Source: Elusimicrobiales bacterium
GTDB lineage: Bacteria > Elusimicrobiota > Elusimicrobia > Elusimicrobiales > UBA9959
Assembly: GCA_028713125.1 (NCBI GenBank)
Contig: JAQTOU010000001.1
Coordinates: forward strand, 266,273 to 330,272
Direction of reading: 5' to 3'
Length of the DNA stretch: 64,000 nucleotides
Of the stretch, positions 34,984 through 52,093 are shown one piece after another; positions within the stretch are counted from its first letter, which is position 1, and each line of letters starts with the position of its first letter. Below the pieces are notes generated by a model that saw only the letters and a program-made list of their open reading frames with translations, had not been told where the DNA came from and searched no databases. A program made the position numbers and the translations under genes.

Positions 34984-36870
34984 TTAAATCGATTTTGACT
35001 GCGCGAGCCTCGCCAGCCAGTCCGCCGCCGAGGCGGCCATCTTTTCGGGGGTAAGCCCGACCTCGGAATAAAGCTCCTCGGGCCTCCCCTGCTCAACATA
35101 GGAGTCGGGGATGCCGAGGCGCAATATCCTGGCGTCCGCCCCGGAATAATTCAGGTATTCCAAGACGGCGGAGCCGAAACCGCCGGCCAGGGAATTGTCC
35201 TCGACGGTAATGACCGGGCCCGCCTTCGCCAGCGCTTCGATCAGCTCCGTATCCAGAGGCTTCACGAAACGCATGTCGGCCACGCCGGCGTCTATGCCGA
35301 GGCCCTTGAGCAGCTGGGCGGCTTTTACCGCCGGGTGCACGCGGTTGCCTATGGCCAGGAAATTAACGTCCCTGCCGCGGGAAAGCAGGCGGCCTTTGCC
35401 CAGCGGGAGCGCAAGGGGCCCGGGATCCATGGGAACGCCGAAACCTCTCCCCCGCGGGTAGCGGACCAGCGCCGGCAGGCCGCAGGCGAAAGCGGTGGCG
35501 AGCATATGCTGCAGCTCGTTCTCGTCGGCGGGGGCCATCACCGTAACGTCCGGGATCATGCGGAAAAGGGAAATATCGAAGACTCCGTGGTGGGTCGGGC
35601 CGTCCTCGCCGACGAGGCCGGCGCGGTCCATGGCGATGACCACCGGCAGTTTCTGCAGGGAGACGTCGTGCTGGACCTGGTCGAAAGAGCGCTGCATGAA
35701 AGAGGAATAGACCGCTACGACCGGCTTCATGCCTTCGGCGGCCAGGCCGGCCGCGAAGGTGACGGCGTGCTCCTCGGCTATCCCGACGTCGTAGTAGCGC
35801 CCGGGAAAAGCGTCCCGGAAAAGGTCCAGGCCGGTCCCCTCGGGCATCGCGGCGGTTATGGCGCAGATCCGCGCGTCTTTTTTCGCCAGCTCTACGAGCG
35901 TCCTGCCGAACACGGCGGTGAAGGTGGGCGGCATTTTCCCGGACTGCGCGCCGGCGCTGGGCTCGCCGGTCTCTATGTCGAACTTAGGCGTGCCGTGGAA
36001 CTGGACAGGCGAGTCTTCGGCCGGCTCGTAGCCGCGGCCCTTGGTGGTTACCACGTGCAGCAGGACCGGCCCCTTCACGTCCTTGATATACCCCATCACG
36101 TCCACGAGCTCCCGCAGATTATGACCGTCGACGGGCCCGAAGTAGGAGAAACCCATCTCTTCGAAAACCATGCCCGGGAAGAAAAGCACGCGCGCGCGCT
36201 TGATGATCCTGCGTATCCTTCTGCCCCAGTGCGGGAACCGGCCGAGAAAGATCTCCGTTCTTCTCACCGTTCTCTGCACCGAACCCATGGTGAGCATTTT
36301 GGTCAGGATATGGCCGAGGCGGCCCACCCGCTCGGAGATGAACATCTGGTTGTCGTTGAGGACCACGAGCAGGTCCGTGCCCAGGTGCCCGACGTTCTGC
36401 ATGGCCTCCCAGGACATTCCGCCGGTCATGGCGCCGTCCGCCACTACGGCGACTACCCGGTGATGGGCGCCGGCCTGGTCGCGCGCGGCCGCCATGCCGG
36501 CCGCCGCTGAAAGCGCGGTGGAGGCGTGGCCCGCCCCGAAGGCGTCGTATTCAGACTCGTAGCGCTTCAGGAAGCCGGACAGCCCCCCGTGCGTGCGGAT
36601 GGTGTGGAACTTGTCGGCGCGGCCGGTAAGGATCTTGTGCGCGTAAGCCTGGTGGCCGGTGTCGAAGACGATGCGGTCGCGCGGGGTGTCGAAAACATAG
36701 TGGAGCGCGAGTATCAGGTCGGTGGCGCCCAGGCTGGAGGCCAGATGCCCCCCCGTCCTGCTTATCCCGTCGACCAGAAGCTTCCGTACTTCCGCGGCCA
36801 GCGCGGGGAGTTCGCCGATGGCGAGCTTCTTTACGTCTTCCGAACCTTTGATCTTTGAAAGCAGTCCCAT
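34984..36870 (-). CDS. dxs: 1-deoxy-D-xylulose-5-phosphate synthase
   Basis: A 628-residue thiamine-diphosphate enzyme joining pyruvate and glyceraldehyde 3-phosphate, the first step of the MEP isoprenoid pathway. Landmarks: FDTGHQAYAHKILTGR, VADGAMTGGMSWEAMQN (ThDP site), and the transketolase-like second half with FAAGLAAEGMKPVVAVYSSFMQRSFDQVQHDV, RAGLVGEDGPTHHGVFD and VEDNSLAGGFGSAV. It starts 1 base from the stop of the polyprenyl synthase gene, so both isoprenoid genes are one unit. Confidence 0.96.
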   Translation of the reverse strand: MGLLSKIKGSEDVKKLAIGELPALAAEVRKLLVDGISRTGGHLASSLGATDLILALHYVFDTPRDRIVFDTGHQAYAHKILTGRADKFHTIRTHGGLSGFLKRYESEYDAFGAGHASTALSAAAGMAAARDQAGAHHRVVAVVADGAMTGGMSWEAMQNVGHLGTDLLVVLNDNQMFISERVGRLGHILTKMLTMGSVQRTVRRTEIFLGRFPHWGRRIRRIIKRARVLFFPGMVFEEMGFSYFGPVDGHNLRELVDVMGYIKDVKGPVLLHVVTTKGRGYEPAEDSPVQFHGTPKFDIETGEPSAGAQSGKMPPTFTAVFGRTLVELAKKDARICAITAAMPEGTGLDLFRDAFPGRYYDVGIAEEHAVTFAAGLAAEGMKPVVAVYSSFMQRSFDQVQHDVSLQKLPVVIAMDRAGLVGEDGPTHHGVFDISLFRMIPDVTVMAPADENELQHMLATAFACGLPALVRYPRGRGFGVPMDPGPLALPLGKGRLLSRGRDVNFLAIGNRVHPAVKAAQLLKGLGIDAGVADMRFVKPLDTELIEALAKAGPVITVEDNSLAGGFGSAVLEYLNYSGADARILRLGIPDSYVEQGRPEELYSEVGLTPEKMAASAADWLARLAQSKSI

Positions 36871-36871
36871 G

Positions 36872-37804
36872 TCAGTTTTCCCGCCCGTAGATGAACCGGG
36901 AGATCCCCGCCAAGGCTTCTTTGGCGGGCGGCGCCCCGCTCACGCTGTCCAGGCTGGAGAGGGCCTTGTTCAGGAGGATCTCGGCGGTGCGCCGCGCCTT
37001 GTCGACGCCCAGGAGGGACACGTAGGTAAGCTTGTTATTGCGGGCGTCGCTGCCGCTCTTGCCCAGTTTTTTCTTGTCGCCCTCCACGTCCAGGATGTCG
37101 TCCGCGATCTGGAAGCAGAGACCGATATCCCGGCCGAATGCCGAGAGGGTATTGAAATCCTTTTTAGGCGCCCAGGCCAGGGCCGCGCCCATCTCTACGG
37201 CGGCGGTGATCAGGTCGGCGGTCTTATGAAGGTGTATGTAGGAAAGCAGGGAGAGCCCGGCTTTTGTCCGCGCCGGGGAAACCTTGCCCTTCCCGCGAAG
37301 GAAACTCGCGGCTTCGAGGTCGGCGGCCTGGCCCGAAGCCATGCCGCAGGCGCCGGCTCTCCTGGACAGGATCGCCGCCGCTGAAAGCAGGGCTTCCGCC
37401 TCGGGCTGGCGCGGGTATTTGGAGGAAAGCAGGACGGTAAAAGCGTCGGTGAGCAGCGCGTCTCCGGAGAGGATGGCCAGCGCTTCGCCGTAAACCTTGT
37501 GGCTCGTGGGCCGGCCGCGGCGCAGGTCGTCGTTATCCATGGCCGGCAGGTCATCATGGACGAGAGAATAGGTATGGACCATCTCCAGCGCGCAGGCCGC
37601 CGGAAGGATATCGGATGCCTTGCCGCCAAAGATCTCGTAGGCCGCCCCCATCAGGGCGGGCCGCAGCCGCTTGCCGCCCGCGGACAGGGAATAAAGCATT
37701 GCTTCGGAAAGGCGGGGCTGTGAATTTTTAAGGCGGGAGACGAAGACCGGCAGGGCTTTGTTTACGGCGGCGGCCCTCTCGGTCATGTATCTTTCGATAT
37801 CCAT
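36872..37804 (-). CDS. ispA: Polyprenyl diphosphate synthase (farnesyl/geranylgeranyl type)
   Basis: A 310-residue trans-prenyltransferase extending C5 units to FPP or GGPP. The first aspartate-rich motif is VHDDLPAMDNDDLRRGRP (DDxxxxD form), the second CFQIADDILD. Residues upstream of the first motif (EMVHTYSLV) include Tyr, compatible with FPP or GGPP product length, which I cannot fix. The gene leads dxs by 1 base. Its start codon is 8 bases after a TATAAT box, with no Shine-Dalgarno. Three 11-bp repeats at 22-bp spacing lie just upstream. Confidence 0.9.
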   Translation of the reverse strand: MDIERYMTERAAAVNKALPVFVSRLKNSQPRLSEAMLYSLSAGGKRLRPALMGAAYEIFGGKASDILPAACALEMVHTYSLVHDDLPAMDNDDLRRGRPTSHKVYGEALAILSGDALLTDAFTVLLSSKYPRQPEAEALLSAAAILSRRAGACGMASGQAADLEAASFLRGKGKVSPARTKAGLSLLSYIHLHKTADLITAAVEMGAALAWAPKKDFNTLSAFGRDIGLCFQIADDILDVEGDKKKLGKSGSDARNNKLTYVSLLGVDKARRTAEILLNKALSSLDSVSGAPPAKEALAGISRFIYGREN

Positions 37805-37966: not shown

Positions 37967-39004
37967 CTACCAGATGAACTGGACGCCCAGGCGGTTGGTG
38001 CTTCCCAGAGGGCCGTAATCGATATAGGAATAATCGACGCGCGCGCCGTGCAGGAAGCTGTTCTTGTCCGCCATCCGGTCGAAATTCAGGCCGAAGCCGC
38101 CGGAGACGCGGGAGCCGGTGTCCTTCTGCGTCTTGTAGCCCAGGCGCAGCTGGAACATCTTCATGACGTCCACCTGCAGCCCGGTGGCCGACAGGTATTC
38201 GCGGTCGGAGTACTTCACCATGTCGGAGGCGACGGTGAACACCATGATATCGTTTACGGTATGGAAGTCCTTGGCCAGGCCGAAGCGCAGCGAGGACGGG
38301 AGCTTATAGCCCTCCTGCAGGAATTTCTCCTCCCCCCCGAAGTTAAGCGCCGAAATACCGATATGGAAATGGTGCGGGAGGATAAGGGCGATCCCGGAGT
38401 CGAAAGCGTAGGAGGAGGCGGAATCCCTGTCCAGCTTCTCGCTGATCTTCTTGACGCTGGCCCCGACGGAAATACGGTAGGCCTTCGGGCGGTAATCGGC
38501 CACGGGCTCTATGCGGGTCCAGGGCGGGGTTATCAGCATGGGGTCCAGCTTGCCGGCGTCTTTTTTAAAGTGGGGCCAGCTCTGGGCGTAGGAAACCATC
38601 GTCATCGTATGGCCCGTAGAGACTTTGCCGATGGCCATGTCGTTCTCGTCGTAGGCCTCGATGTCGCCGCTGGAGAGAGTGGTGAAGGCGGCCCCGACGG
38701 TGCCGAAAGGAAAGCGCCAGGCCAGCGCGAGATATTCCTGCTTTATACCGTCGATATACTGGTTATGCGCGCCGGAGAAAGCGGAATAGCTAAGGAGGCC
38801 CAGCCCGGCGGGGTTATAAAGTATGGAGTCCGGGCCCACCATGGCGGTATAGGCTTCGCCCATGGCCGTGGGAATGGCCGCCACGGGGATCTTGAGGAAA
38901 TTGGCGGAGGTCGTGCCGGCGCCGCCGGCGCGCGCGGGCGGACAGGGCCATGCGGCCAGTAAAGCCGCGGCGGCGAGTAGACTTAAATATGCCCGCGTTT
39001 TCAT
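37967..39004 (-). CDS. PorV/PorQ-family outer-membrane protein
   Basis: A 345-residue outer-membrane beta-barrel. After the signal peptide (ending ARA-GG) comes the family opening GTTSANFLKIPVAAIPTAMGEAYTAM...SILYNPAGLG, the PorV/UPF0164 signature. The rest has alternating strands and ends QFIW. PorV shuttles or anchors type IX-secreted proteins in Bacteroidota; in other phyla PorV-like proteins are common but less well known. A second member is at 61963-62889. A good promoter lies just upstream. Confidence 0.88.
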   Translation of the reverse strand: MKTRAYLSLLAAAALLAAWPCPPARAGGAGTTSANFLKIPVAAIPTAMGEAYTAMVGPDSILYNPAGLGLLSYSAFSGAHNQYIDGIKQEYLALAWRFPFGTVGAAFTTLSSGDIEAYDENDMAIGKVSTGHTMTMVSYAQSWPHFKKDAGKLDPMLITPPWTRIEPVADYRPKAYRISVGASVKKISEKLDRDSASSYAFDSGIALILPHHFHIGISALNFGGEEKFLQEGYKLPSSLRFGLAKDFHTVNDIMVFTVASDMVKYSDREYLSATGLQVDVMKMFQLRLGYKTQKDTGSRVSGGFGLNFDRMADKNSFLHGARVDYSYIDYGPLGSTNRLGVQFIW

Positions 39005-39566: not shown

Positions 39567-40820
39567 TTATTTTATCCACTTGGTGAAGTCGTCCCAGTTG
39601 GAGTCTTTCGCCCATTCGAGCGCGTCGTAGGCCGTCGTGTAGGAGGTCGGGATGTAGATCGCGAGCCCCAGCGCGTTGGCATACTTGGAGCCGGTGGCGC
39701 GGTTGTGGTAGATGACCGAGCCGGACAGGAAGTTCAGGAGCTCGGCGCCCCTGGCTTTCACGTCCGCGTTCTGCGTCCCGTCGTTCACCAGTTTAACGAA
39801 GTGCGGAAGCGACTTGTTGCTGGAGTAATAGAAGGCCTGCGCCTTGGTGCGGGCGTTCTTTGCGTTGGCGACCTCGCCGGAAGCCATCACGGCGGAAACC
39901 CAGCCGTTCATCAGCTGGCCCAGCTTGTAGAGGTTCTCCGTCTTTACGGATGATTGCGTCGCGCCCTGGCCGATAGACTGGTAGTGGTCCGTGTAGGAAT
40001 CCACCATGGTCTTGGACAGCTCGGCCTGCGTCATGGACGGATTGGCGGCCAGCGGGCCCAGCCAGGTGTGGTAGGTGTAGCCGTCGCCGGGCTCGGTCTC
40101 TTCCGAAGCCACGATATAATCCGCGCCGGTGCGGACTTCGTAGGCCACTTCCATCATCTGCATCAGGCATGCGTCCATGGAGAGGATCTCCACTTTGCCG
40201 GTTTCGGCGAGGGCCTGCTTGAGCTGCTGGGTGGTGATGTGGTTGCCGGATTCGTCGTCGTAGGAGATGCCCTTGCCTGATTCTACGGCGAGGTTCTTGT
40301 TCCAGCCGGAGCCGTGGTTCCAGACCACGAGGACGTAGCGCTGGGCCGGGTACTTGGACTGCGACCATTTCACGAACTCGACCAGGTTTTTCCAGTTGCC
40401 CATGTCGGACTTCGGGATCTCCATCACTATCGGCGAGGTGATCTTGGTGGTGTCCGCGTCCTTCTGAATAAGGTAGCGGCGCGAGCCGGTCCAGTCGCCG
40501 TCGTCGCTGGAATAGCCGCTGATGCGGCCGAGCTCCGCCACGATGTTCAGGTCGGGGGTGGAGCCGACCTGCTCCATTTCGTTCACGTCGCCGAGGCCGT
40601 AGGACTCTAGATTGTTCTTGGCGTTCACGTAGACCATGACGGTCCATTTGGCCGTGGCTTTCGGGTTGCCGGGAAGCGGGACTACCCGGGAGTCCTGGTT
40701 GGCGTTCTTCAACTGCGTCACTATCTTTGAAACGCTGCCCTGCTGGTCGAAGGTCACGCCGGCGAAAGCGCCGGAAACCATGACGAGGCAGAGAAGCGCG
40801 CCGAATAACTTGTTTTTCAT
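39567..40820 (-). CDS. Exported clostripain-like (C11) cysteine peptidase
   Basis: A 417-residue exported protease. A signal peptide (MKNKLFGALLCLVMVSGAFA) is followed by the C11 fold (about 55-280): WTVMVYVNAKNNLESYG, the catalytic His in VVWNHGSGWN and the catalytic Cys in SMDACLMQMMEVAYE, then YIVASEETEPGDGY. C11 enzymes cleave after Arg or Lys and mature by self-processing; a full-length member usually has a heavy and light chain, and this one has a helical C-terminal third that may be the second chain. GGAGGAG lies about 5 bases before the ATG. Confidence 0.93.
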   Translation of the reverse strand: MKNKLFGALLCLVMVSGAFAGVTFDQQGSVSKIVTQLKNANQDSRVVPLPGNPKATAKWTVMVYVNAKNNLESYGLGDVNEMEQVGSTPDLNIVAELGRISGYSSDDGDWTGSRRYLIQKDADTTKITSPIVMEIPKSDMGNWKNLVEFVKWSQSKYPAQRYVLVVWNHGSGWNKNLAVESGKGISYDDESGNHITTQQLKQALAETGKVEILSMDACLMQMMEVAYEVRTGADYIVASEETEPGDGYTYHTWLGPLAANPSMTQAELSKTMVDSYTDHYQSIGQGATQSSVKTENLYKLGQLMNGWVSAVMASGEVANAKNARTKAQAFYYSSNKSLPHFVKLVNDGTQNADVKARGAELLNFLSGSVIYHNRATGSKYANALGLAIYIPTSYTTAYDALEWAKDSNWDDFTKWIK

Positions 40821-40979: not shown

Positions 40980-42485
40980 ATGATCAGATATATATTAATG
41001 GTTTCCATATTGGCCGTACAGGCCGCCGCAGCCCCGCTGCTGAGCGCGCAGACGGCCAGCCGGTCTTCCCTCGAGGGCAAGCTGGCCCTGGAAAGCTCCC
41101 TGGAAAAAAGAGTCAGGATGGTCCTTTCCGAAGCCCTGGGGACCGAGGACATAATAGTCATCATCTCCGCCGAGCTGCAGGAGCAGGACAAAAAGTCCGC
41201 CGAGATCATGCCCGGCGTCCCCCAGAAAGAAAAGATGGGCGAGCCCTCCCTTTCCAGCAGCCTCACGATGGTCAAGAAGATCTCGGCCAGCCTGATCCTG
41301 GACAAAGCCCTGTCCGAGCCCGACACGGAACTGGCGAGAAAGCTGGCCCTGGGCCTGCTCGGCCTCCCGCCGGACAGGCAGGACCTGGTCACGATCGAGA
41401 AGATGGATTTCAGGAAGACCAAGCCCTTGACGATGGCTACGCTCTTCGCCCCCCCCAACCTCTGGAGCCTGATCTGGATCCTGGTCGTGGGGGTACTGGC
41501 GATGGTCACGGTTACCGTTTTCCTCTCTCCGCTTTCGAAGAGCGCGCGCGCCTTCGTGGAAGCTTTCAGCGCGAACAGCGCCGCCGCGGCCGCCGGAGGG
41601 GACCGCCCCGACAGACCGGAAGCAGAAGCCGCCCGCCCCGAAGCCGCGGCCGCCGCCGAAGCAGCCGCCAAGGATATAGAAGGCAGGAAGCCGCCTTTCT
41701 GGTTCCTGAACGCGGGCCATCTCGGCAGCCTCGCCTTCATAATGAAGAACCGTCCCGTAGAGGACCTGACCATAGTCCTCAGCTACGCGCCCGGAGACTT
41801 CGCCGCCAAACTGGCCGAAGCCCTCTATCCCCGGAGCGCGGAAGCGATGGCGGCCCTCCCTAAAGTAACCCTTATGCCGGAAGCCCGCATACGCGCCCTC
41901 GAAGCGGAAATACTTTCCTCGCTCGATTACGTGGTCGGCGGCGAAGAGAAAGCCATCACGGTAATAAGCGGGCTGGACGAGGCGGTGCAGGATAAAGCCC
42001 TGGCCGCCTTAAGCAAGGTCGACCCTGCCATGTCGAGGAAGCTCGGCGCCCTTATCATACGCCTTTCCCATATCCAGAACATCGAGTCCTCCCAGGCCCA
42101 GGCGCTCGCCCGCCGGGTATCCATGCGGGTGCTGGCCGCCGCGCTGAAAGGCTCCGCCTACGCCAAGCCTTTTACCGCCAAGCTGGCCGGCGGCATGCAG
42201 GAGCGCTTCCAGCAGGAACTGGACCTGACCAGGGACCTGCCGGCCGAGGCCTACAAGGCCGACCGCGCCAAAGTGGTCGAGGCTATGAGGCAGATGCTCA
42301 AGGAAGGCCTCCTCACGCTCAAGCCTCACGGAGCCCCTTCCCTGCTCCCCGCCGGAGCCAAGCCCGGCGCGGCGCCCGCGGCGGGCAAGCACCCGGCGGG
42401 CGCGGCCCCCTCGCCGGCCGCGGCCGCCAAACCCGCTGCGGCGGCGCCCGGAGCGAAAGCGCCGCTCCCCGCAGCCAAACCCTAA
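40980..42485 (+). CDS. FliF C-terminal/FliG-like fusion (rotor protein)
   Basis: A 501-residue fusion. Residues 1-23 are a signal-like hydrophobic start; about 40-150 match the periplasmic C-terminal part of FliF (LEKRVRMVLSEALGTEDIIVIISAEL, then VKKISASLILDK and DLVTIEKMDF). A single membrane helix spans about 161-183. An Ala/Pro linker leads to a cytoplasmic FliG-like part: FliG middle domain at about 240-365 (VEDLTIVLSYAPGDFAAKLAEAL, then EEKAITVISGLD...KVDPAMSRKLGALI) and C-terminal domain at about 370-460 with LAAALKGS, the torque-helix-like GGMQERFQQELD and KVVEAMRQMLKEGLLTL. The tail is Ala/Pro-rich. FliF's ring-building N-terminal domains are absent. It leads an operon with MotA and two MotB genes. 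Confidence 0.78.
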   Translation: MIRYILMVSILAVQAAAAPLLSAQTASRSSLEGKLALESSLEKRVRMVLSEALGTEDIIVIISAELQEQDKKSAEIMPGVPQKEKMGEPSLSSSLTMVKKISASLILDKALSEPDTELARKLALGLLGLPPDRQDLVTIEKMDFRKTKPLTMATLFAPPNLWSLIWILVVGVLAMVTVTVFLSPLSKSARAFVEAFSANSAAAAAGGDRPDRPEAEAARPEAAAAAEAAAKDIEGRKPPFWFLNAGHLGSLAFIMKNRPVEDLTIVLSYAPGDFAAKLAEALYPRSAEAMAALPKVTLMPEARIRALEAEILSSLDYVVGGEEKAITVISGLDEAVQDKALAALSKVDPAMSRKLGALIIRLSHIQNIESSQAQALARRVSMRVLAAALKGSAYAKPFTAKLAGGMQERFQQELDLTRDLPAEAYKADRAKVVEAMRQMLKEGLLTLKPHGAPSLLPAGAKPGAAPAAGKHPAGAAPSPAAAAKPAAAAPGAKAPLPAAKP

Positions 42486-42508
42486 GCCATTAAAAGAGGT
42501 AAACCACA

Positions 42509-43285
42509 ATGGACCTGATGACATTTTTCGGCGGCATCCTCGGCATAGGCGTTATCGTATTCGTCCTGTCCGCCGGCGGCATGCTGCGGTTCCTGCTTAA
42601 CTGGGAAGCCATCGTCCTCATCTTCGGCGGAACCCTGGGCTCCGTGATGATAGCCTACCCCTGGGCGGCGCTGCAGTGGACGAAGTCCTCCTTCGTCATG
42701 GTCCTTTTCCCGCCGAAGCGCCCGCCTATCTCGGAGCTTGTCAGGTCCCTGGTCAGCCTCGCTGAAATAGGCAAAAAGAACGGCCTGGAGGCCATCTCCG
42801 CCGAGCTGCGCAGGCTGCCCCATCCCTTCATGACGGACGCCTGCCAGATGATGGTGGACGGCGTGGACATCCACATCCTGCGCGAGCGCATGGAGAACGA
42901 TATCAATACCACCCGGCTGCGCCACCAGCAGCAGACCAATGTCTTCAACTCCGCCGGGACCTTCGCCCCCATCTTCGGCCTGCTGGGCACGCTGATCGGC
43001 GTCGTGCAGGTGCTCCGGAACATCCAGAACCCGCAGATGATGGGTTCCTCCATGGCCATCGCCATGACCGCGTCCTTCTACGGCATCTTCTCCGCCAACT
43101 TCATCTTCCTGCCCATCGCCAGCAAGCTCGGCTACCACTCCGACGAGGATATCCTCAGCCGCGAGATCATCGCCAAGGGCGTGCTCTCCATCTACGAGGG
43201 CGACGTGCCCTGGCTGGTCTCAAAGAAGCTCGAGGGCTACCTTTCGCTCGCCCTCCGGCGCAAGGCGAAAGCGATAGCAAAATGA
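42509..43285 (+). CDS. motA: MotA-type stator channel protein
   Basis: A 258-residue four-helix inner-membrane protein that conducts ions with MotB to turn a rotor. It begins with a helix pair (DLMTFFGGILGIGVIVFVL and WEAIVLIFGGTLGSVMIA), has a cytoplasmic loop with charged residues (PKRPPISELVRSLVSLAE), and two C-terminal helices carrying the conserved prolines: GTFAPIFGLLGTLIGVVQVL and SFYGIFSANFIFLPIASKLG. This matches true MotA/PomA, longer than TolQ/ExbB, which lack the large cytoplasmic loop. AAGAGG is 9 bases before the ATG. It overlaps the first MotB gene by 4 bases. Confidence 0.9.
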   Translation: MDLMTFFGGILGIGVIVFVLSAGGMLRFLLNWEAIVLIFGGTLGSVMIAYPWAALQWTKSSFVMVLFPPKRPPISELVRSLVSLAEIGKKNGLEAISAELRRLPHPFMTDACQMMVDGVDIHILRERMENDINTTRLRHQQQTNVFNSAGTFAPIFGLLGTLIGVVQVLRNIQNPQMMGSSMAIAMTASFYGIFSANFIFLPIASKLGYHSDEDILSREIIAKGVLSIYEGDVPWLVSKKLEGYLSLALRRKAKAIAK

Positions 43286-43956
43286 AATTCTTCATAGAGC
43301 GCTACTCCAAGCGTAAGGTGGAGGAGAACCCCCTCTGGCTGGTCGTGCTGTCGGACATCATGACCAACCTGATGCTCTTCTTCCTCATCCTTTACGTCTT
43401 CAGCATCCACCCGGAGAGCGAGGCGAAGGCCGTTTTCATAGACGGCTTCGACAAGGAGAACGCCCAGAAGCAGAAGGAAAAGAAAGCCGAGGAGATAATA
43501 AAGAAATTTACGGAAGAGGACATCGCTAAAAAGCTGGCCGAGGAGCTGTATAAAGCCGGCATGAAGGATATGGCCGAGGTGCAGATCACCGACAAGCAGA
43601 TAAAGATAAATATCGCCGCCCCGGTGCTCTTCGCCTCGGGCAAGGCGAAGCTGGGCAGCGCGGCTTCCGGTGTGCTCGCGCCGGTGGCGCAGGTCCTCAA
43701 CAAGCTCCCGAACGATATTATCGTCGAGGGGCATACCGACAGCGTTCCTATCAAGTCGGGCGACTACGCCACCAACTGGGAGCTGTCCGCTGCGCGCGCC
43801 GACGCGGTGGTGGAGCTGCTGGCGACCAAATACGCCGTGCCGCAGGAGCGGCTGATAGCCGCCGCCTACGGCGAGAACCGCCCGGCCGCCTCTAACGACA
43901 CGGCCGGCGGCCGCGCGCTGAACCGCAGGATAGAGATAATAGTTTCACGCAAATGA
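43282..43956 (+). CDS. motB: MotB-type stator protein, first copy
   Basis: A 224-residue MotB. One N-terminal helix, WLVVLSDIMTNLMLFFLILYVFS, contains D25 at the place of the essential ion-binding Asp of MotB. A coiled, Lys/Glu-rich stretch (about 50-95) follows, then an OmpA-like peptidoglycan-binding domain (about 100-224) with APVLFASGKAKL, VEGHTDSVPI, NWELSAARADAVV, YGENRPAASND and LNRRIEIIVS. It is coupled on both sides by ATGA overlaps, to MotA and to the second MotB. Confidence 0.9.
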   Translation: MKFFIERYSKRKVEENPLWLVVLSDIMTNLMLFFLILYVFSIHPESEAKAVFIDGFDKENAQKQKEKKAEEIIKKFTEEDIAKKLAEELYKAGMKDMAEVQITDKQIKINIAAPVLFASGKAKLGSAASGVLAPVAQVLNKLPNDIIVEGHTDSVPIKSGDYATNWELSAARADAVVELLATKYAVPQERLIAAAYGENRPAASNDTAGGRALNRRIEIIVSRK

Positions 43957-44603
43957 GCGGAAAAAAAGACACTTCACAGCTCTGGATGGTGCCCTTCGCG
44001 GACCTGATGTCCTGCCTGGTCATCCTTTTCCTCGCCCTTTACGTCTTTTCTTTCAACCAGAAGAAGCCGGAATACGAGGCCGCCATAGCCAATCTGCAGA
44101 AAGAGCTCGGAGTGAAATCGGCCGTGAAAAAAGTCAAGGAGATAGAAGCGGCCAAGAAGGTGGAGGAGGAGCTGAAGAAGGAGATCGAGGAGGGCAGCCT
44201 GGGGATGGAAGTGACCACCTCGCGGATAAAGCTGACTTTTTCCTCGCCGATACTTTTCGACTCGGGCTCCGCCGACCTGAAGGACACCGCCCGGAGCGTG
44301 CTGGACCCGGTGGCCGCCAGCCTGCTGAAAATGGACAACAAGGTCATTGTAGAAGGCCATACCGATTCCGCCAGGATGCTGGGCAAGAAATTCGCCTCTA
44401 ACAGGGAGCTCTCAATCATGAGGGCTTTCTCCGTCATAAACTACCTGGTTAAAAGAGGCGTGCCGCCGGTAAGGCTGACCGCCTTCGGCTACGGCGAATT
44501 CCGCCCGGCCGCCCCGAACGACAGCGACGCCAACCGCCTGAGGAACCGCAGGATAGAGATAATAATAATGCGCCAGGCGGAGATACAGGAAGGAAAAACA
44601 TGA
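43953..44603 (+). CDS. MotB-type stator protein, second copy
   Basis: A 216-residue paralogue of the preceding gene product. The helix WMVPFADLMSCLVILFLALYVFS has D17 at the ion-binding position and a typical MotB FADLM sequence, closer to standard MotB than the first copy. A charged linker and an OmpA-like domain follow (SPILFDSGSADL, VEGHTDSARM, NRELSIMRAFSVI, YGEFRPAAPND, LRNRRIEIII). Sequences of the two copies differ widely. ATGA overlaps join it to both neighbours, so equimolar production and a mixed dimer are plausible, though not shown. Confidence 0.9.
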   Translation: MSGKKDTSQLWMVPFADLMSCLVILFLALYVFSFNQKKPEYEAAIANLQKELGVKSAVKKVKEIEAAKKVEEELKKEIEEGSLGMEVTTSRIKLTFSSPILFDSGSADLKDTARSVLDPVAASLLKMDNKVIVEGHTDSARMLGKKFASNRELSIMRAFSVINYLVKRGVPPVRLTAFGYGEFRPAAPNDSDANRLRNRRIEIIIMRQAEIQEGKT

Positions 44604-45487
44604 GAACTTACGCCCTAATTTGCGCTCTGCTCGCCTGCTGCGCCCCCGCCGTCAGCGCGCAGACCGCCACGCCCACCGAAAGCGCCGAGGTCAGGGAATA
44701 TTACGACAAAGCCTTCGGCTACTATGTCGCCGGGGACTACCCCAAAGCGATAGAGCACTGGAGCATGGTGCTGCGGGCCGATCCCAAACAGACCACCGCC
44801 AAGAACATGATAGAGGACGCCCGCAAAAAAATGGCCGGCTCTTCCGCGGACCTGAAAGGCGCGCTGAACAAGCTGCTGGAAAAAGGCCGCTACTCGGACG
44901 CCCTGATGAAACTCGAGGAGCTGCTTGCCACGGACCAGACGAACCCGTTTTACATAAAGCTGCAGGGCCGGCTCGGGAAGATATCCGCCCTGGTCCCGGC
45001 CAGGCCTTCGTCCTCGAAAGCCTGGAACGCGGCCTCGGAAGGGATCTCCGCCTGGCTGGGAGAGAAAGAGGACCTTCCCTTCGCCTATGACGCCCTGCGC
45101 TACGCTTCGGAACTGGCTCCCTCTGAAAAAGTTTTCATCCGGCTAACGGCCACGCTGGAGGAAGAGGCCCCCCAACTCAAGCTTAACGATACCAAGCCCG
45201 AGAACGCCGGCGTGCTGGAGCACAAAAAAGAGATGGCGCTGCACCAGATCTACGATTCCAAGTTCTACCTCGCGGTGAAGGAGCTGGAAGGGGTGCTCAG
45301 GCTGGAGCCGGGCGACATCACAGCTCTCAAGCGGGCCGGCTCGGCCTACCTGCAGCTCAAGGATTACAAGCAGGCCAGGCGCGCCTGGCAGAAAGCCCTC
45401 GGCCTCTCCCCCGACGACGAGCAGCTAAAAGAGTACCTGGACGCCCTGGAAAAAGCCGCCCCCTCTAAACCCTCCGCTAAAAATTAA
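44600..45487 (+). CDS. Exported TPR protein of the motor operon
   Basis: A 295-residue protein with a signal peptide (MRTYALICALLACCAPAVSA-QT). Helical TPR-type repeats are clear at both ends: EYYDKAFGYYVAGDYPKAIEHW and SDALMKLEELLATDQ, then FYLAVKELEGVLRLEPGD and LKDYKQARRAWQKALGLSPDD. The middle is helical without clear repeats. It overlaps the second MotB by 4 bases and ends the operon. A periplasmic TPR protein would suit stator anchoring or rotor assembly; this is inferred from position. Confidence 0.85.
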   Translation: MRTYALICALLACCAPAVSAQTATPTESAEVREYYDKAFGYYVAGDYPKAIEHWSMVLRADPKQTTAKNMIEDARKKMAGSSADLKGALNKLLEKGRYSDALMKLEELLATDQTNPFYIKLQGRLGKISALVPARPSSSKAWNAASEGISAWLGEKEDLPFAYDALRYASELAPSEKVFIRLTATLEEEAPQLKLNDTKPENAGVLEHKKEMALHQIYDSKFYLAVKELEGVLRLEPGDITALKRAGSAYLQLKDYKQARRAWQKALGLSPDDEQLKEYLDALEKAAPSKPSAKN

Positions 45488-45542: not shown

Positions 45543-47456
45543 CTAGAACGAGTAATTGTATCTCGTCATCATATTAACCTCGCTCGAGTCGTTGCCGGGG
45601 TTAATATTGTCCTTCCTGGAAAGCCCGCCCACGCCGAAAGTGAACCTGGAATTCTGATTCTTCAGCCAGACCGTTTCAACATTGACCGAAAGAGAGCTTG
45701 AATCCGCGGGCGAGAAGAGCGAGTCGTTCTTCGCCGAGGACATTGTCGTCCAGCATTGCACGGCCATCCCCCTGCGCGGCATCGAATAAGAGACATTGCC
45801 GGTAATGCTGGTATTCTTCCCGGTCGTGGAATCTATTTTGTCCTTGCTGGTGGAATTTACCATGCCGGTGGACAGCGAAAGTTTCCTGGTAAGTTTAAAG
45901 GACCCGTTTAGAGAGATAAGGGAGCTGTCGAGGTCGTGGGAAAGGCGCGTATTGTCCTTAAAGGAGCTGGTCTGGAAGCCGGCGCTGAGCGTATGCGCGG
46001 CCACCGGCTGGGTGACGGAGAAATTCAGCGTGGTCGTCTGGTTGTCCTGGACGCCCTCCGGCTTGCCCTTGGCGGCGTTCGTCATGATGGAGGTATTTAC
46101 CACCGTCTTGTTAAGCCGCAGCATATTGGCCAGCGTGGTCTGGGTCTGCTCGGTGGTGGTCTTGGCCGGATCGGCGGCGAGATTATCGGAGTACTTGTTA
46201 ATGGCCAGCGAGAACGTGGTCCAATCCGCCGGGAAAATACCCAATTCGCCGTCTATGATCTGGCGGTCGGAGATCACCGAAGGGCTGGCGAAGGAGTAAA
46301 ATTCAGGTTCTATCCGAGACAGGGCGCCCCGCGCCGTGAACATCGCGGCGCGGTACTTCAGCTCCTGCTTCCAGGCCGACCCCCCCACCGCCGGCCCGGC
46401 GGCGTTCATGTCCGGATTGTAGGAGCTCATCTGGAAGTCGCTGTTAAGCGAGAAGCCGTTCAGGAATTTCCATTCCGCGTTGAGCCCGTAAACCGCGGTC
46501 TGCTGCGGCTTGAGGGTGATGGCGGTGGTGGTGATATTTATGGAGTGCTCGTCGTCGCGGCTTATCACCGCGTCGACCGCGATCCTGAGGTTAGGCCTGA
46601 ACTGCCACCCGGCCTTGAACCCGCCAGAATACCTGGCGAAGCGTCCGCCGCTGTTGGGGCCTGGCTCCTCGGGCGCCACGATGCGGCCGATGAGGGCTAT
46701 GAGAGATAGCTTGCCCCTGGCCCGCTCAAGGGAGACGCCGCGCATGCCCTGTCCGTCCAGCGAAAGCGGCGTCAGGGACGGGGAGATATCGCCCACGCTT
46801 AGATTTCCCCACGGGGCGTAGTAATTTAGCAGGACTATCGTGGGCGTGATCGGCCTGTGATAGGTGCTCACGATATAGGTATTGAACAGAAAAGAGGATT
46901 TGCGTATCTTGCCGACGAAGTTGGCGGCGGTTATAGCCTGGTGATTATCCCAGCCGTCGCGGCTGGCGTTCCTGTAAGTGAAAGATACGTCGCCTCCTAT
47001 TTTGAAGTCCTCCGGCATCGGGGGGCGCAGCTCTTTCTCGATGATCTGGAAGCCTTTATAGTCGGTCTCTAGTATCCGCTTCCCGCCTTTGATGAGGAAG
47101 ACGCGGTAGAGCAGGCGGCGGCCCTGCAAATTATCCGGGACCACGAACGGAAGCTGGATCCCCTGCGCGGCGCCCGGCGGCACGTCCTCGGCGGGAGAGA
47201 CGGACTCCGTCTGCGTAATGAATTTTTTATCCTCGCCGTCGAGGGCGTAGATCTCGCCTATCCAGTAGTAAGTGCCCTGGGTCCAGGTGGTGTCGCCGGT
47301 ATTGACTACCAGGGTCTGCAGCTTGACTTCCTCGCCGGCCATCACAGGGTCGGGCGCCGCTACTGTAAATTGGAGGCTCGCATTGTCCATAGCCAGGGCG
47401 GGGGCCGAGAGACAAACAGCGAGCAGCAGGGAGGCGAATACATTGTTCAATTTCAT
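45543..47456 (-). CDS. Outer-membrane beta-barrel with an N-terminal Ig-like domain (637 aa)
   Basis: The start MKLNNVFASLLLAVCLSAPALA gives a signal peptide; a longer start would place the -10 box inside the gene. Residues about 25-140 form a beta-sandwich of CARDB type (LQFTVAAPDPVMAGEEVKLQTLVVNTGDTTW). From about 150 to the end there are many alternating amphipathic strands with a last segment MMTRYNYSF ending in Phe, as expected of a large outer-membrane barrel. No named family. It follows the Kelch/Ig gene on the same strand and may be its partner in the outer membrane. Confidence 0.7.
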   Translation of the reverse strand: MKLNNVFASLLLAVCLSAPALAMDNASLQFTVAAPDPVMAGEEVKLQTLVVNTGDTTWTQGTYYWIGEIYALDGEDKKFITQTESVSPAEDVPPGAAQGIQLPFVVPDNLQGRRLLYRVFLIKGGKRILETDYKGFQIIEKELRPPMPEDFKIGGDVSFTYRNASRDGWDNHQAITAANFVGKIRKSSFLFNTYIVSTYHRPITPTIVLLNYYAPWGNLSVGDISPSLTPLSLDGQGMRGVSLERARGKLSLIALIGRIVAPEEPGPNSGGRFARYSGGFKAGWQFRPNLRIAVDAVISRDDEHSINITTTAITLKPQQTAVYGLNAEWKFLNGFSLNSDFQMSSYNPDMNAAGPAVGGSAWKQELKYRAAMFTARGALSRIEPEFYSFASPSVISDRQIIDGELGIFPADWTTFSLAINKYSDNLAADPAKTTTEQTQTTLANMLRLNKTVVNTSIMTNAAKGKPEGVQDNQTTTLNFSVTQPVAAHTLSAGFQTSSFKDNTRLSHDLDSSLISLNGSFKLTRKLSLSTGMVNSTSKDKIDSTTGKNTSITGNVSYSMPRRGMAVQCWTTMSSAKNDSLFSPADSSSLSVNVETVWLKNQNSRFTFGVGGLSRKDNINPGNDSSEVNMMTRYNYSF

Positions 47457-47468
47457 GTTGAATTTTAA

Positions 47469-47474
47469 ATTATA
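47469..47474 (-). promoter_or_regulatory. -10 box of the beta-barrel gene
   Basis: TATAAT on the minus strand, 12 bases before the chosen ATG; no Shine-Dalgarno follows. It lies in the 41-base gap after the Kelch/Ig gene stop. Confidence 0.4.
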
Positions 47475-47497
47475 ACTAATTTGAGCCATGCCTTAGT

Positions 47498-50400
47498 TTA
47501 CCGTATCACCGCGAATTTCTTGACGACTTTCTCCGTCTCTCCGGTAGCGCTTTTCTTTACCCGCAATATGTAAAGGTAGACTCCGGAAGCGATACTTTCA
47601 TGGGACATATCCCAGTAGATCTTCTTGCTGTTGACTCCGGGCACTACGGCGCTATCATCGGACACGTTCGCAAGCTTCTTTACCAGGCGCCCGGCAATAT
47701 CGAAGATCTCGACCTCGGCCTCTGTCGCGTCTGAAGTGAAGTGGAAATTCACCGCAGTATTGGCCGGGTTGGGATAGGCGTAAACGCCGGCCTTGTTGAG
47801 CAGGTCCCACTTAGGCGTGAACACAAGGTTCTGGCCGGGGCGCAGCGTGACGGTCTCCATTTTGCTGAAGTCCGAGCCGTTATAAACACGGAGGCCGTAG
47901 GTGCCGGGCAAGAGGTTGGGAACGGAGAAAGCGCCGGAGGAATCGGTGAAAGCCGCGCCTATGCGACGGCCGCGGCTGTAGATCTCCACGAAAGGCTCTG
48001 AGCCGGAGGAAGGGCGGACCTCGCGCGTGGTATAGCGGGCCCCGGCGGGGCGGGAAGCGGCCTGGCGCGGCATGAAGTTGGACGGGATAAAGCCCGAGAT
48101 AGTGGCCAGCTGGTAAGTTACGCTCAGCGTGAAGTTGACTCCGGTGGAGCCGTTGGGGATGCCGTCCTTGGAGACGGAGCTTTCCAGGTCCTGCGCCGTC
48201 CAGACCGCCCTTATTGTTAAGTACAACGAATTCAGGGCCGGTATTGAATAATTGCCGAAGATGTCCGTATAATCGTTCCCCTCCACGGCTCCGGAAGGGC
48301 CGATGGCCTCTACCAGCACGCCCGTGACGGGCTGCGTAGAGGCGTCCGTCACCCTGCCGGTAAGCGCCCCGGTATCCGGCGCGCCGGACATAGCGGCCGC
48401 CTCGTTGGACGCGAGCGACCAGTTCTGCGCGTCGTCCGCCGTCCAGAGCGCGAAGTAGAAGGTGGTGGAAGCGTTAAAACCCGACAGGACTTTATACTGG
48501 GTCGTCCCGGCCGTAAGGGTGGCAGTAGCTATCGTAACCTGCGCGGAAGTTGTGGAGAGGTCCGCCCCTGAATAGGTGGAATAGGCTATTTTAAAGCTCC
48601 CGGACAACAAGTAGCCGTTAGCAGCATTATCTCCGGCCGCGCGCCAGCGGAGATTCACGGCGCCGCTGACGCTTCCAGGAGAGGCGGTAAGGACGGAGGC
48701 CGGCGGGGGTGTCGCGTCATAGTAGGTGAACGTCGAGCCCTGAGCGTAGAACGCGCCGGTATTGACCGGGGACGAGGCGTCGGCGGCCCTTACGCTGGCA
48801 TAGTAGGAAGCGCCGTTTACCAGCGAATCGCGCAGGTAGTTCTGGAAGTTCCAGGTCCAGTAAGGCGTAGTTCCTGCCAAGAGAGCTTCGGGAGCGCCAG
48901 TGCTCTCCCACAAAGACTGGCTGTTCTTCCACCATTTGCCATCGGACAGCCTGCGCAGCACTACGTCGACGGAGCTTATCCCTGAAACGGGGTCGTCGGC
49001 CGTACCGCTTATCCCCGTGGCCGAGGCGGCGGACGAGCCGTCCTCCGGGTAAACTATCCGCGCGGAAGGCGGGGCCGCGTCGAAGGTGAAGGTGCGCGTA
49101 GCGAAAAGCTGGGAATAGTCACCGGCGGAGTCCGAGGACCGCGCCACAACCTGGTACATGCGCCCGCTGATAAGAGGAAGGTTGTTAAAGGTCAGCGTGA
49201 ACGTACTGGCCTGGTCCTCGGCGTCCTGCCAGGCGCGTGAGCCGGAAAGGAAGTCCCCAGCGTTATAGTAGAGGCCGTTGGACATGTCGCGGATGGAAAT
49301 TTCCGTGCCCTTCACGGCATGGGAATTAGTCTCGCTGGTATTGCCCGAGACCCACGTAAAGGTGGAAAGGTAGGCCAGCGACGGGGTGGAGATATTGACC
49401 GTGGGCCCGCTGATATTCTTCGCTATGCCGAAAGCGTCGGCGTAAGTGCGCGTCGACCCGGCCACGTCGATAGCGCGGAAGCTGAAATAATTGGAAGTCG
49501 CGTTCGCCAGCTGGTTGAAGTTGTAGGGCAGGGGCGCCGGCTGGTACCAGGTGTCGCCCGGAGTGAGCCCGGGGATGTCCGTCCAGGGAATGACGTTGCC
49601 GTCGGCGAAGAGCTTCCCGGTGCTGGCGCTGTACTGGACCTTCGCCAGGCCGGAGAGCGTATCGTCGAAGCGCAGGCCTGTTATATCGCCCGGATAATCG
49701 GTCAGCCAGGCCGTCGGAGGCGCGAAGTTCACGCTTATAGCCGGCGGAGTACTGTCCTTCAGGACGCTGAACAGGTCGGACTGCTCGGCATAGTTCCCGG
49801 AATTGTCATAAGCCCGGACCGAGACATAATTAGATGCGCCTTCAAGCATTCCTTCCCAGATGTTCTGCGGTATCGCCCAGTTGGCCGTATAGGAAGGCTG
49901 ATTGATCCCCGTGACGGCGTCCGCCCAGGGATAAATTACGCTGGCTGGATCGCCTAAAGCGGTTGAAATCTGCAGGCGGAACTTACTGATCCCGGAGGCG
50001 CCATTGTCCGTAAAATTAACGTCGCAGAGGAAAGTGTTGGTCCCTTTCCAGTCGGTGAAATCCGACTGGGCGTCGGTAATGGTCGGGCTGTCCACGTCCA
50101 GCGCCGGGTCGAAACTGGTCCGAAACGGCGGGAACTCAATGAACCGGGAAGCCCGGCCATAAGTATTATTAACCTTGATCTTGGCGTAATAGGTCGTACT
50201 CTGAAGCAGGGCGCCGATAGTCGCGGACGTACCGGAATTCAAGATCGCTCCCGGAGGATTGTAATCAGGGGAGCTGGAATAAAGCACCAGATAATTGTAC
50301 CCGGGCTGGTTCCCGTTAGCCAGCCAGTTGACCGTGACAGAATCCACGCCGATATTCGTCCAGGCGGCAGTGCCGGGTATCGCCGCGTAAGTAATAGTGG

Positions 50401-52093
50401 AGCCTACCGGGGAATAAGCCGTCTCGATCCCTGTCCAGTTCCTGGCCTTGGCCCTGAAGTAATAGGTCGAGCTCGGCTGCAGGGCGTAGAAAATGGCCTC
50501 CGGGCTGCTGGCCCAGTTGGAAGTTATAAGTCCGTTCGTAAAGATATTGTCAGCGGCTATCTGGACCTGGTATTCAGTTCCGCGCAGGACGGAGGCAAAG
50601 ACCAGATTGGAGGCGGCGGAGCCGCTTGAGCCGCCTAAGAGCTGGAGCCTAGAACCGACTATTTCCCCCGCCGCGAACTGGAGCGGCGCAGTCAAAGGCG
50701 CGCCTGACTCCCAATGGGCGATACCGGCGGCCGGCACAGTAGTAAGGAAAACCTGGGCCTGCGCATTGGAGCCGTTATTGCCTCCTATAATATAAAGCCG
50801 GTTAGCCGCCGACAGGGCCGTATGTCCGTAGCGGGGAGCCGGGAGTGAAGTGTAAGCGGAACAGGCCCCGGGGAAAGCTCCTGCGTCGAGAGCGCAGCTC
50901 CAGACTTCGCTCCGGGCCGAGGACCCGTCCTTGCCGCCGGCTATAAGGAGCCTGCCGGGGAGCAAAGTCATGGAGTGGGCGTAGAGAGGGTTCGGCAGGG
51001 TTCCGGCGCTGCTCCAGGTCCCGAGGGTTCCGTCGTCGCCCACCTCGGCATAGTAAATTCCCGCCAGAACGCCTGAGCCGCTCTTGTAGCCGCCGGAGAT
51101 ATAGATCCTGGTCCCGGCCAGGGCCGCGGCGTGGAAGTAGGCGCGGTCCGGCAAGGGCTTTTCAGTCTCCCACTTGCCGATTTCCCCTGCAGGGGAAATA
51201 TCGGCGGACCAGACTTCAGACCGGGAGCCGTTGGACGCGTAACCGCCAAGTATATACAGCCTGCCGCGAGCTGCCACCGCCTGGTGCCCGTAGAGACCGG
51301 CCGGCATGAACCCGGCTGTTTCCCAAAGGGCGACACTGCCGTCCACTGAAAGAATTCCGCGTAGCACCGCACTCGAAAAAGAAACTCCGTCGAAGCCGCC
51401 GGTGAGAAAAACGTTACCCCCGTAGACCGCCGAAGCCTGCCCATAGCGCGCCGCCGGCAGGGCAGGGGCCTGCGGAACCCAGTTCATGACGGGGACGGGC
51501 GGAGTATTCTCGAAGCCGGCAAAAGAAAGGTCAAGAGTATTATGTCCGGCATCGGCGAGAGTGAAGGCGCCGGAAGACGGCGCTACGGCGAGCGTAACCG
51601 CCGTGGTGGACGAGAAAGCGGAATAATCCCCCTCCATATAATTCGCCATGACAAAATTGTAGTAACTAGTATTAGAGTAGAGGCTCTCGACCGGGCGGCC
51701 CGTGGCGTCCGTAGTGAAATACACCATATAAGGGTCGGCCATAGCCCAGGTGGAGACGTAAACATCGTAGGTAGTTCCGGCCGGGTTCGCCTGGACCAGG
51801 GACAAAGTATAGCTGCTGATATTCGCTGCCGAGTAGCCCGCGGCGGCGCTGCTGACCAGGCGTGAATAGAAGCCGGATTCGAGTTCGGACGACCCCGCAA
51901 CCGAAATGCCGTAGGCCGCGCCTCCCAATGCGCCGTCGAGGGCAAAAGCCCCCCCGCCCTGGCCCAGCGCGCCGGAAGAAAATTCCGAAGCGTCGCCCAG
52001 GACGGTTATATTCCCCGCTTTTTTTTCAGCCGACGCCGCCAGTGAGAGGAACAGGCAGACCGCCGCGATGGCTGTACGACTCAACGTCTTCAT
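47498..52093 (-). CDS. 1531-residue exported Kelch/FN3/Ig protein with type IX-like C-terminal domain
   Basis: The signal peptide (MKTLSRTAIAAVCLFLSLAASA) is followed by an N-terminal beta domain, then six Kelch-like repeats (about 200-495) of the form RYGQASAVYGGNVFLTGG, GHQAVAARGRLYILGG and AHSMTLLPGRLLIAGG. Fibronectin-like and Ig-like modules follow (about 500-1230), then two carboxypeptidase-regulatory-like domains (GALTGRVTDASTQPVTGVLVEA; RRIGAAFTDSSGAFSVPNLLPG). The last 85 residues (YAYPNPANTAVNFHF, VEIFDIAGRLVKKL, IASGVYLYILRV, VVKKFAVIR) have the layout of a type IX secretion sorting domain. This suggests a surface-displayed adhesin or carbohydrate-binding protein. Confidence 0.85.
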   Translation of the reverse strand: MKTLSRTAIAAVCLFLSLAASAEKKAGNITVLGDASEFSSGALGQGGGAFALDGALGGAAYGISVAGSSELESGFYSRLVSSAAAGYSAANISSYTLSLVQANPAGTTYDVYVSTWAMADPYMVYFTTDATGRPVESLYSNTSYYNFVMANYMEGDYSAFSSTTAVTLAVAPSSGAFTLADAGHNTLDLSFAGFENTPPVPVMNWVPQAPALPAARYGQASAVYGGNVFLTGGFDGVSFSSAVLRGILSVDGSVALWETAGFMPAGLYGHQAVAARGRLYILGGYASNGSRSEVWSADISPAGEIGKWETEKPLPDRAYFHAAALAGTRIYISGGYKSGSGVLAGIYYAEVGDDGTLGTWSSAGTLPNPLYAHSMTLLPGRLLIAGGKDGSSARSEVWSCALDAGAFPGACSAYTSLPAPRYGHTALSAANRLYIIGGNNGSNAQAQVFLTTVPAAGIAHWESGAPLTAPLQFAAGEIVGSRLQLLGGSSGSAASNLVFASVLRGTEYQVQIAADNIFTNGLITSNWASSPEAIFYALQPSSTYYFRAKARNWTGIETAYSPVGSTITYAAIPGTAAWTNIGVDSVTVNWLANGNQPGYNYLVLYSSSPDYNPPGAILNSGTSATIGALLQSTTYYAKIKVNNTYGRASRFIEFPPFRTSFDPALDVDSPTITDAQSDFTDWKGTNTFLCDVNFTDNGASGISKFRLQISTALGDPASVIYPWADAVTGINQPSYTANWAIPQNIWEGMLEGASNYVSVRAYDNSGNYAEQSDLFSVLKDSTPPAISVNFAPPTAWLTDYPGDITGLRFDDTLSGLAKVQYSASTGKLFADGNVIPWTDIPGLTPGDTWYQPAPLPYNFNQLANATSNYFSFRAIDVAGSTRTYADAFGIAKNISGPTVNISTPSLAYLSTFTWVSGNTSETNSHAVKGTEISIRDMSNGLYYNAGDFLSGSRAWQDAEDQASTFTLTFNNLPLISGRMYQVVARSSDSAGDYSQLFATRTFTFDAAPPSARIVYPEDGSSAASATGISGTADDPVSGISSVDVVLRRLSDGKWWKNSQSLWESTGAPEALLAGTTPYWTWNFQNYLRDSLVNGASYYASVRAADASSPVNTGAFYAQGSTFTYYDATPPPASVLTASPGSVSGAVNLRWRAAGDNAANGYLLSGSFKIAYSTYSGADLSTTSAQVTIATATLTAGTTQYKVLSGFNASTTFYFALWTADDAQNWSLASNEAAAMSGAPDTGALTGRVTDASTQPVTGVLVEAIGPSGAVEGNDYTDIFGNYSIPALNSLYLTIRAVWTAQDLESSVSKDGIPNGSTGVNFTLSVTYQLATISGFIPSNFMPRQAASRPAGARYTTREVRPSSGSEPFVEIYSRGRRIGAAFTDSSGAFSVPNLLPGTYGLRVYNGSDFSKMETVTLRPGQNLVFTPKWDLLNKAGVYAYPNPANTAVNFHFTSDATEAEVEIFDIAGRLVKKLANVSDDSAVVPGVNSKKIYWDMSHESIASGVYLYILRVKKSATGETEKVVKKFAVIR

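Follow-up and report, generated by a model that had tools for sequence, protein, structure and literature searches.

The stretch of DNA considered here, called the window, is 64,000 nucleotides long (Elusimicrobiales bacterium, GCA_028713125.1, JAQTOU010000001.1:266,273-330,272, forward strand; positions below are 1-based within it). At 40980-45487 it carries five genes, all on the + strand, for a fusion of FliF and FliG, for MotA, for two MotB proteins (MotB1 and MotB2) and for a tetratricopeptide repeat (TPR) protein, and this operon very probably specifies a rotor-stator motor that is not flagellar. The explanation favored as a whole (at a probability of roughly 0.55) is an ion-driven rotor and stator made of flagellar parts that drives a gliding-like movement, or adhesin transport, in a non-flagellated bacterium. 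The component of this explanation that concerns output, namely that the motor moves surface adhesins of the type IX secretion system (T9SS) kind in a gliding-like role, has about an even chance of being right.

An earlier note on this DNA described five genes, four of them (MotA-MotB-MotB-TPR) joined by 4-base overlaps. All five open reading frames (ORFs) are there, and the overlaps are found at MotA/MotB1, MotB1/MotB2 and MotB2/TPR; a 23-base gap separates the fusion from MotA. The note also read the first gene as the periplasmic C-terminal part of FliF, one helix and FliG middle and C-terminal (M and C) domains, and the next three as a stator; the profile and structure comparisons below bear out both readings.

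The fusion protein

The fusion joins the RBM3 (S-ring) domain of FliF, one membrane helix and FliG M+C in one chain. Its FliG part is recognized directly: Pfam FliG_C matches residues 343-446 at 34.6 bits (cut-off 23.3), and a profile of 32 fusion orthologues matches solved FliG M+C (3ajc) over residues 240-451 (69.6 bits, E=1.9e-18). The FliF part is seen through profile-profile alignment and structure work, beyond Pfam and NCBIfam, and two paralogues in the same genome match YscJ_FliF_C (26.3 and 24.7 bits with neighbors; cut-off 23.8). When 50 fusions are aligned by hhalign with flagellar FliF (the reference being two flagellated members of the same phylum), residues 27-149 match with probability 97.2 and E=3.9e-11; the aligned stretch reads 'LEKRVRMVLSEALGTEDIIVIISAEL ... 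KKISASLILDK ... DRQDLVTIEKMDF'. The AlphaFold2 model of the periplasmic domain runs helix, strand, disordered insert, strand, helix, strand, which is a split RBM3 topology; the split ring-building motif is that of FliF RBM3 (PMC4768692). Foldseek ranks FliG first and FliF next for the whole model. For the periplasmic domain alone, FliF or MS-ring structures fill the top 21 places (E 3.9e-4 to 1.1e-2, probability 1.00).

Much of flagellar FliF and FliG is missing. The periplasmic part has only about 125 residues and aligns to RBM3 alone, RBM1 and RBM2 being absent; in place of the first FliF transmembrane (TM) helix there is an N-terminal segment that resembles a signal peptide; FliG_N is also missing. 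K390, R409 and E413, near the MotA-facing helix, are invariant in the fusions. The EHPQ motif of FliG_M, which is known for FliM binding, is replaced by PVED or similar, in agreement with the absence of FliM.

The stator and its paired MotBs

MotA is of the full-length flagellar type, called FIT in PMC12505986. Its residues 1-246 align without large gaps to solved Paenibacillus MotA (176 bits) and to PomA, and the alignment shows the expanded cytoplasmic torque region to be present. MotB1 and MotB2 each have a TM helix of the MotB_plug family, an ion-binding Asp and an OmpA-type peptidoglycan domain; for all three proteins the profile matches are firm.

These proteins could, in principle, serve a non-rotary envelope device, in which the stator energizes or tethers the envelope (as TolQR does) or drives a complex linearly along the cell (as AglRQS does) and the fusion is a static adaptor. 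AglRQS does power gliding by a MotAB-like ion motor that has no flagellar rotor (PMC13104615), and peptidoglycan binding is to be expected of the OmpA domains in the MotBs. Against this, MotA is far from TolQ (184 bits to the MotA family vs 18 to TolQ), and FliG M+C and the RBM3 ring domain are retained and co-evolve with MotA. Such a device is therefore improbable.

The pairing of MotBs has left a trace in the ion-binding site. Among 34 tandem MotB pairs (20 of the window type, 14 of other types), the Asp is gone from one member in nine and from both members in none (0/34, double losses being rare by chance too, with about 0.6 expected if losses were independent). The members concerned, in which G, N, S, C or A replaces the Asp, include MotB2 of the C15 locus of the source genome and those at L095, L098, L099, L111, L167, L190, L195 and L197. 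Single MotBs keep the Asp in 23/23 readable cases, including the flagellar MotB of G032. This is what a heterodimer in which one or more sites must work would produce, and at the level of sequence the one-sided loss suggests that the B subunits pair as heterodimers for which a single ion site suffices.

Absence of a flagellum and distribution in the phylum

The source genome (Elusimicrobiota; 3.48 Mb in 39 contigs, completeness 100%) gives no match in profile searches for FlhA, for the FliM/FliN C-terminal domain or for rod/hook proteins (PF00460), each of which matched in four flagellated control genomes; an ordinary flagellum is rejected on this ground. Since the FliG and FliF matches are significant (FliF by profile-profile comparison) and no flagellar set was found elsewhere in the genome, the earlier reading of a rotor plus stator without a flagellum stands. 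It could still be supposed that these are ordinary flagellar parts that serve, or recently served, a flagellum, every one of them being homologous to flagellar proteins. Unless the missing genes lie outside the assembled DNA, this is very improbable indeed in view of the empty searches in a complete genome, the replaced EHPQ motif and the retention of the system under selection, without flagella, across the phylum.

FliG_C is found in 109 of 245 Elusimicrobiota genomes and FlhA in 3. The FliG_C-bearing frames are mostly 480-720 amino acids (aa) long and are therefore fusions. In one genome, G185, FliF and FliG are encoded separately in a flagellar cluster and a fusion locus lies elsewhere; the fusion is thus an additional system. 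Families f2 (70 genomes) and f13 (49), which have small genomes, are exceptional: FliG occurs in 1/119 of their genomes vs 108/126 elsewhere in the phylum. These are presumably the gut Elusimicrobiaceae and the Endomicrobia, gut and symbiotic lineages.

Conservation and co-evolution

A survey of gene neighborhoods in relatives, which the earlier note had proposed, finds the order fusion-MotA-MotB-MotB-TPR intact at 19/19 orthologous loci not cut by a contig end (MotA of L089, hidden in the survey by an overlapping frame, was seen on reading the MotBs). Fusion identity is 47-77% among aligned relatives from named genomes; these are Elusimicrobia metagenome-assembled genomes, many from groundwater. 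Over 35 loci, the distance matrix of the rotor and that of the stator are correlated at r=0.91, a value that none of 2000 permutations reaches, and swapping partners between paralogous loci within a genome lowers r in 9 of 9 cases, in several only slightly. Chance ORFs, or a one-off fusion, are rejected on the strength of 34 loci in named genomes, the conserved operons and the phylum-wide occurrence.

The locus is not single: the operon is one of five loci in its genome and belongs to a multi-copy family that spans the phylum. The source genome has four FliF-FliG fusions and one truncated, membrane-anchored FliG, with MotA and MotB near each (Table 1).

Outer-membrane neighbors

Orthologous loci usually share four neighbors: PorV, a C11 peptidase, a probable beta-barrel (45543-47489 in the window) and a sorting-domain protein (47498-52093). 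PorV-family proteins and substrates with the C-terminal sorting domain are T9SS features, and beside the window operon both pass curated cut-offs. The earlier description of a machine stripped to rotor and stator thus holds as far as rotor and stator without a flagellum are concerned, and is incomplete in that PorV/PorP-like and T9SS-sorting-domain proteins are conserved neighbors.

A PorV-like gene lies directly upstream of the fusion, on the same strand, at 35 of 50 fusion loci, and in another class a homologue of the window's barrel stands immediately upstream (L111). At the C15 and C11 loci, PorV/PorP-SprF-like proteins with C-terminal TPRs adjoin the fusion or are one gene off, and giant or CHU_C-type sorting-domain proteins are also present; type A/B sorting domains occur at paralogue loci. 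At the C35 locus, a 536-aa PorV-like gene is directly upstream of the fusion, behind a 5348-aa protein. In Flavobacterium gliding, the mobile adhesin SprB binds the PorP-like SprF, which is encoded adjacent to it (PMC9143113).

The chief competing explanation, which we consider unlikely, is that secretion across the outer membrane runs on this motor, which would stand in for GldL/GldM as the ion-driven engine of a system resembling the T9SS and having a SprA-like translocon. PorV-family and sorting-domain proteins do adjoin the motors, and a SprA-like translocon is encoded in the source genome (C15:291594-296732; the homologue in G121 reaches 113.6 bits against TIGR04189, whose cut-off is 200). 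A Pfam search with SprA_N made this translocon look patchy (39/245 genomes, the source genome not among them); a phylum-specific query corrects the count to 230/245. GldM matched in 0/245 genomes in a search that no control genome matched either, so that its absence is not shown. What speaks against a secretion engine is distribution: 70/70 genomes of f2 and 35/49 of f13 keep the SprA-like protein, with the fusion in only 1/119. The translocon accordingly does not need the motor, and the idea that SprA-type secretion requires it is weakened; near-absence of the motor where the translocon is kept speaks for an activity that is dispensable and tied to habitat, surface movement for example, rather than for basic secretion.

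The SprA-like protein is itself an outer-membrane protein of some 1800 aa that resembles SprA/Sov but is divergent (also at L118:8-5329), and in some genomes it stands beside lptF/lptG-like genes.

A proposed mechanism

Rotation, gliding and secretion are roles that we infer. In the mechanism proposed for surface movement, the fusion would oligomerize through its periplasmic FliF-type RBM3 into an inner-membrane ring. MotA would push on the cytoplasmic FliG domains, which are covalently attached, so that FliG N and FliM/FliN would not be needed. The B dimer is probably a heterodimer of MotB1 and MotB2, and stators of composition MotA5:MotB1MotB2, both MotBs being anchored to peptidoglycan, would turn the ion gradient into torque. 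The rotating periplasmic ring would be linked to PorV/PorP-like outer-membrane barrels, with the exported TPR protein as a possible connector; the barrels may hold the giant T9SS-sorting-domain proteins, which the motor would move along the cell surface.

Several observations weigh against this interpretation. The FliF similarity of the window's fusion is too weak for a direct Pfam or NCBIfam match. The AlphaFold2 predicted template modeling scores are low (0.37 for the whole fusion, 0.54 for the periplasmic domain), and the domain arrangement is for this reason not established. The charged torque residues are kept in part. By the E. coli FliG numbering of the MotA-facing charged residues (K264, R281 and D288/D289), K390 stands at the K264 position and E413 at D289, while the R281 position is Gly405, with the invariant R409 one helix turn past it. 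MotA and MotB lie in the fetched stretch at 34 of the 50 fusion loci examined, a set mostly outside the window-operon family, biased to strong FliG matches and not a random sample. MotA was not found in the fetched stretch at the other 16, and for nine of these none appears in a further 17-18 kb downstream either. Proximity of a sorting-domain gene is no proof that its product is physically linked to the motor.

It may tentatively be suggested, at somewhat less than even odds, that the operon represents an additional type of ion-driven envelope machine, a motor complete in itself with a one-chain rotor, flagellar-derived or a sister of the flagellar motor. It would have no export apparatus, and a cell would contain several paralogues of it, each driving a separate outer-membrane barrel and a giant adhesin. 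Should the fusion prove to branch outside flagellar FliF/FliG, the rotor-stator module could be older than the flagellum.

Relation to known systems

The components are known and the combination is undescribed in the literature searched; we class it as a variant of the flagellar rotor-stator, and as a member of neither the flagellum nor the T9SS. With the bacterial flagellar motor it shares RBM3, FliG M + C, full-length MotA with its torque region, and MotB with Asp and OmpA domain. It differs in having FliF and FliG in one chain that is without RBM1/RBM2, the first FliF TM helix and FliG N, in having no FliM/FliN, export gate, rod or hook, and in having its stator genes, with two MotBs, in the rotor operon. 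To our knowledge, a flagellar rotor and stator together have been described only within a flagellum; injectisomes and the Chlamydia fusion are without a MotAB stator.

With the T9SS/gliding motor of Bacteroidota (GldLM, SprA, PorV, SprB/SprF) it has in common an ion-driven engine of the 5:2 type, PorV/PorP-like barrels, a SprA-like translocon and giant sorting-domain proteins; the engine here, in contrast, is MotAB with a FliG-type rotor and not GldLM (subject to the GldM search having had no matching control). Like AglRQS of Myxococcus, which has two B-type subunits, it is a MotAB-like ion motor outside a flagellum. Agl, however, falls in a generic ExbB/TolQ-like group (PMC12505986) and has no FliG/FliF rotor, whereas a flagellar-type MotA and a rotor are present here.

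The closest precedent is the FliF-FliG fusion of Chlamydia, which is likewise natural, occurs in a non-flagellated bacterium and has a reduced periplasmic part, but is accompanied by FlhA and an injectisome; MotA/MotB are not among the flagellar genes listed for Chlamydia (PMC4768692). From engineered fusions of the two flagellar proteins it is known that a covalently joined rotor chain is able to assemble (Vibrio) and to rotate in a flagellum (Salmonella) (PMC4768692, PMC11481574); unlike the present one, these are laboratory constructs, placed within an ordinary flagellum or purified as MS ring. The combination was not described in the open-access literature searched, a coverage that leaves out preprints and most subscription journals.

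If the interpretation is right, torque generation is separable from the flagellum, in a natural rotor-stator pair that has no export apparatus, rod or hook; FliG-MotA coupling could then be studied in a minimal system, and surface movement in this phylum, few of whose members have been cultured, would have a candidate mechanism. The question of a motor without, or before, its propeller becomes testable by phylogeny and reconstitution.

Other rotor loci

The C26 locus (L100; G000:C26:526273-529928) is an even smaller rotor-stator set, made up of MotA, MotB, the 308-aa anchored FliG-like protein and a proline-rich coiled-coil protein. Several rotor genes are followed by genes for coiled-coil proteins (L006:627-3071, L007:13333-15306, C26:528792-529928). 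The one at C11 has a histidine-kinase ATPase domain at its C-terminus, and there are response regulators in the vicinity of the C11 and C15 loci; control of the motors by such neighbors is possible. At loci of other classes (L106, L108, L109, L162-L165, L171, L181, L185, L186 and others) the rotor gene is followed by giant coiled-coil proteins, with no MotA near. L107 (G037:C15) encodes a stand-alone 346-aa FliG-like protein in a genome without FlhA. The fusion frames at L179 and L189 (genomes G179 and G161) are the longest of all, at 966-1187 aa, and represent either real N-terminal extensions or just open frames in GC-rich DNA.

Map of the operon and adjoining genes

Table 1. Features of the motor operon, its neighbors in the window (plain coordinates) and related rotor genes elsewhere in the source genome (coordinates with contig handle)
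Feature	Location	Strand	Basis or remark
FliF(RBM3)-TM-FliG(M+C) fusion, 501 aa, putative one-chain rotor	40980..42485	+	Pfam, profile alignments, AlphaFold2, Foldseek
N-terminal hydrophobic segment, probable cleaved signal peptide, aa 1-24	40980..41051	+	sequence reading and orthologue alignment
Periplasmic FliF RBM3 / S-ring domain with split insert, aa 26-149	41055..41426	+	hhalign to flagellar FliF; AlphaFold2; Foldseek
Single membrane helix, aa about 159-185	41454..41534	+	hydrophobic stretch within predicted helix 158-205
Cytoplasmic FliG middle and C-terminal domains, aa 240-451	41697..42332	+	Pfam, orthologue profile, Foldseek
Ala/Pro low-complexity tail, aa 452-501, weakly conserved, predicted disordered	42333..42482	+	alignment, AlphaFold2
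MotA stator subunit, 258 aa, flagellar (MotA/PomA) type, full-length	42509..43285	+	profile matches, alignment to solved structures
MotB1, 224 aa: TM helix with Asp25, OmpA-like peptidoglycan-binding domain	43282..43956	+	profile matches, alignment
MotB2, 216 aa: TM helix with Asp17, OmpA-like peptidoglycan-binding domain	43953..44603	+	profile matches, alignment
Exported TPR protein, 295 aa, fifth operon gene	44600..45487	+	profile matches; kept in 19/19 orthologous loci
PorV/PorQ-family outer-membrane protein, conserved neighbor	37967..39004	-	NF033709 110 bits, cut-off 90
Clostripain-family (C11) peptidase, divergently oriented neighbor in most orthologous loci	39567..40820	-	PF03415 188 bits
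Probable outer-membrane beta-barrel, conserved neighbor	45543..47489	-	barrel call inferred from sequence
1531-aa exported kelch/fn3 protein, C-terminal T9SS type A sorting domain	47498..52093	-	TIGR04183 33.8 bits (cut-off 23), PF18962 34.2 bits (cut-off 27)
Fusion paralogue	C15:670845-672383		with MotA and two MotBs
Fusion paralogue	C35:271619-273541		with coiled-coil protein, MotA, MotB
Fusion paralogue	C11:15303-16742		MotA/MotB about 6 kb away
308-aa membrane-anchored FliG-like protein, no periplasmic domain	C26:527864-528790		directly after MotA and MotB

Further out in the window, at 34984-37804 on the - strand, are deoxyxylulose-phosphate synthase-like and polyprenyl synthase-like genes, which adjoin PorV in most relatives and are apparently unrelated to the motor.

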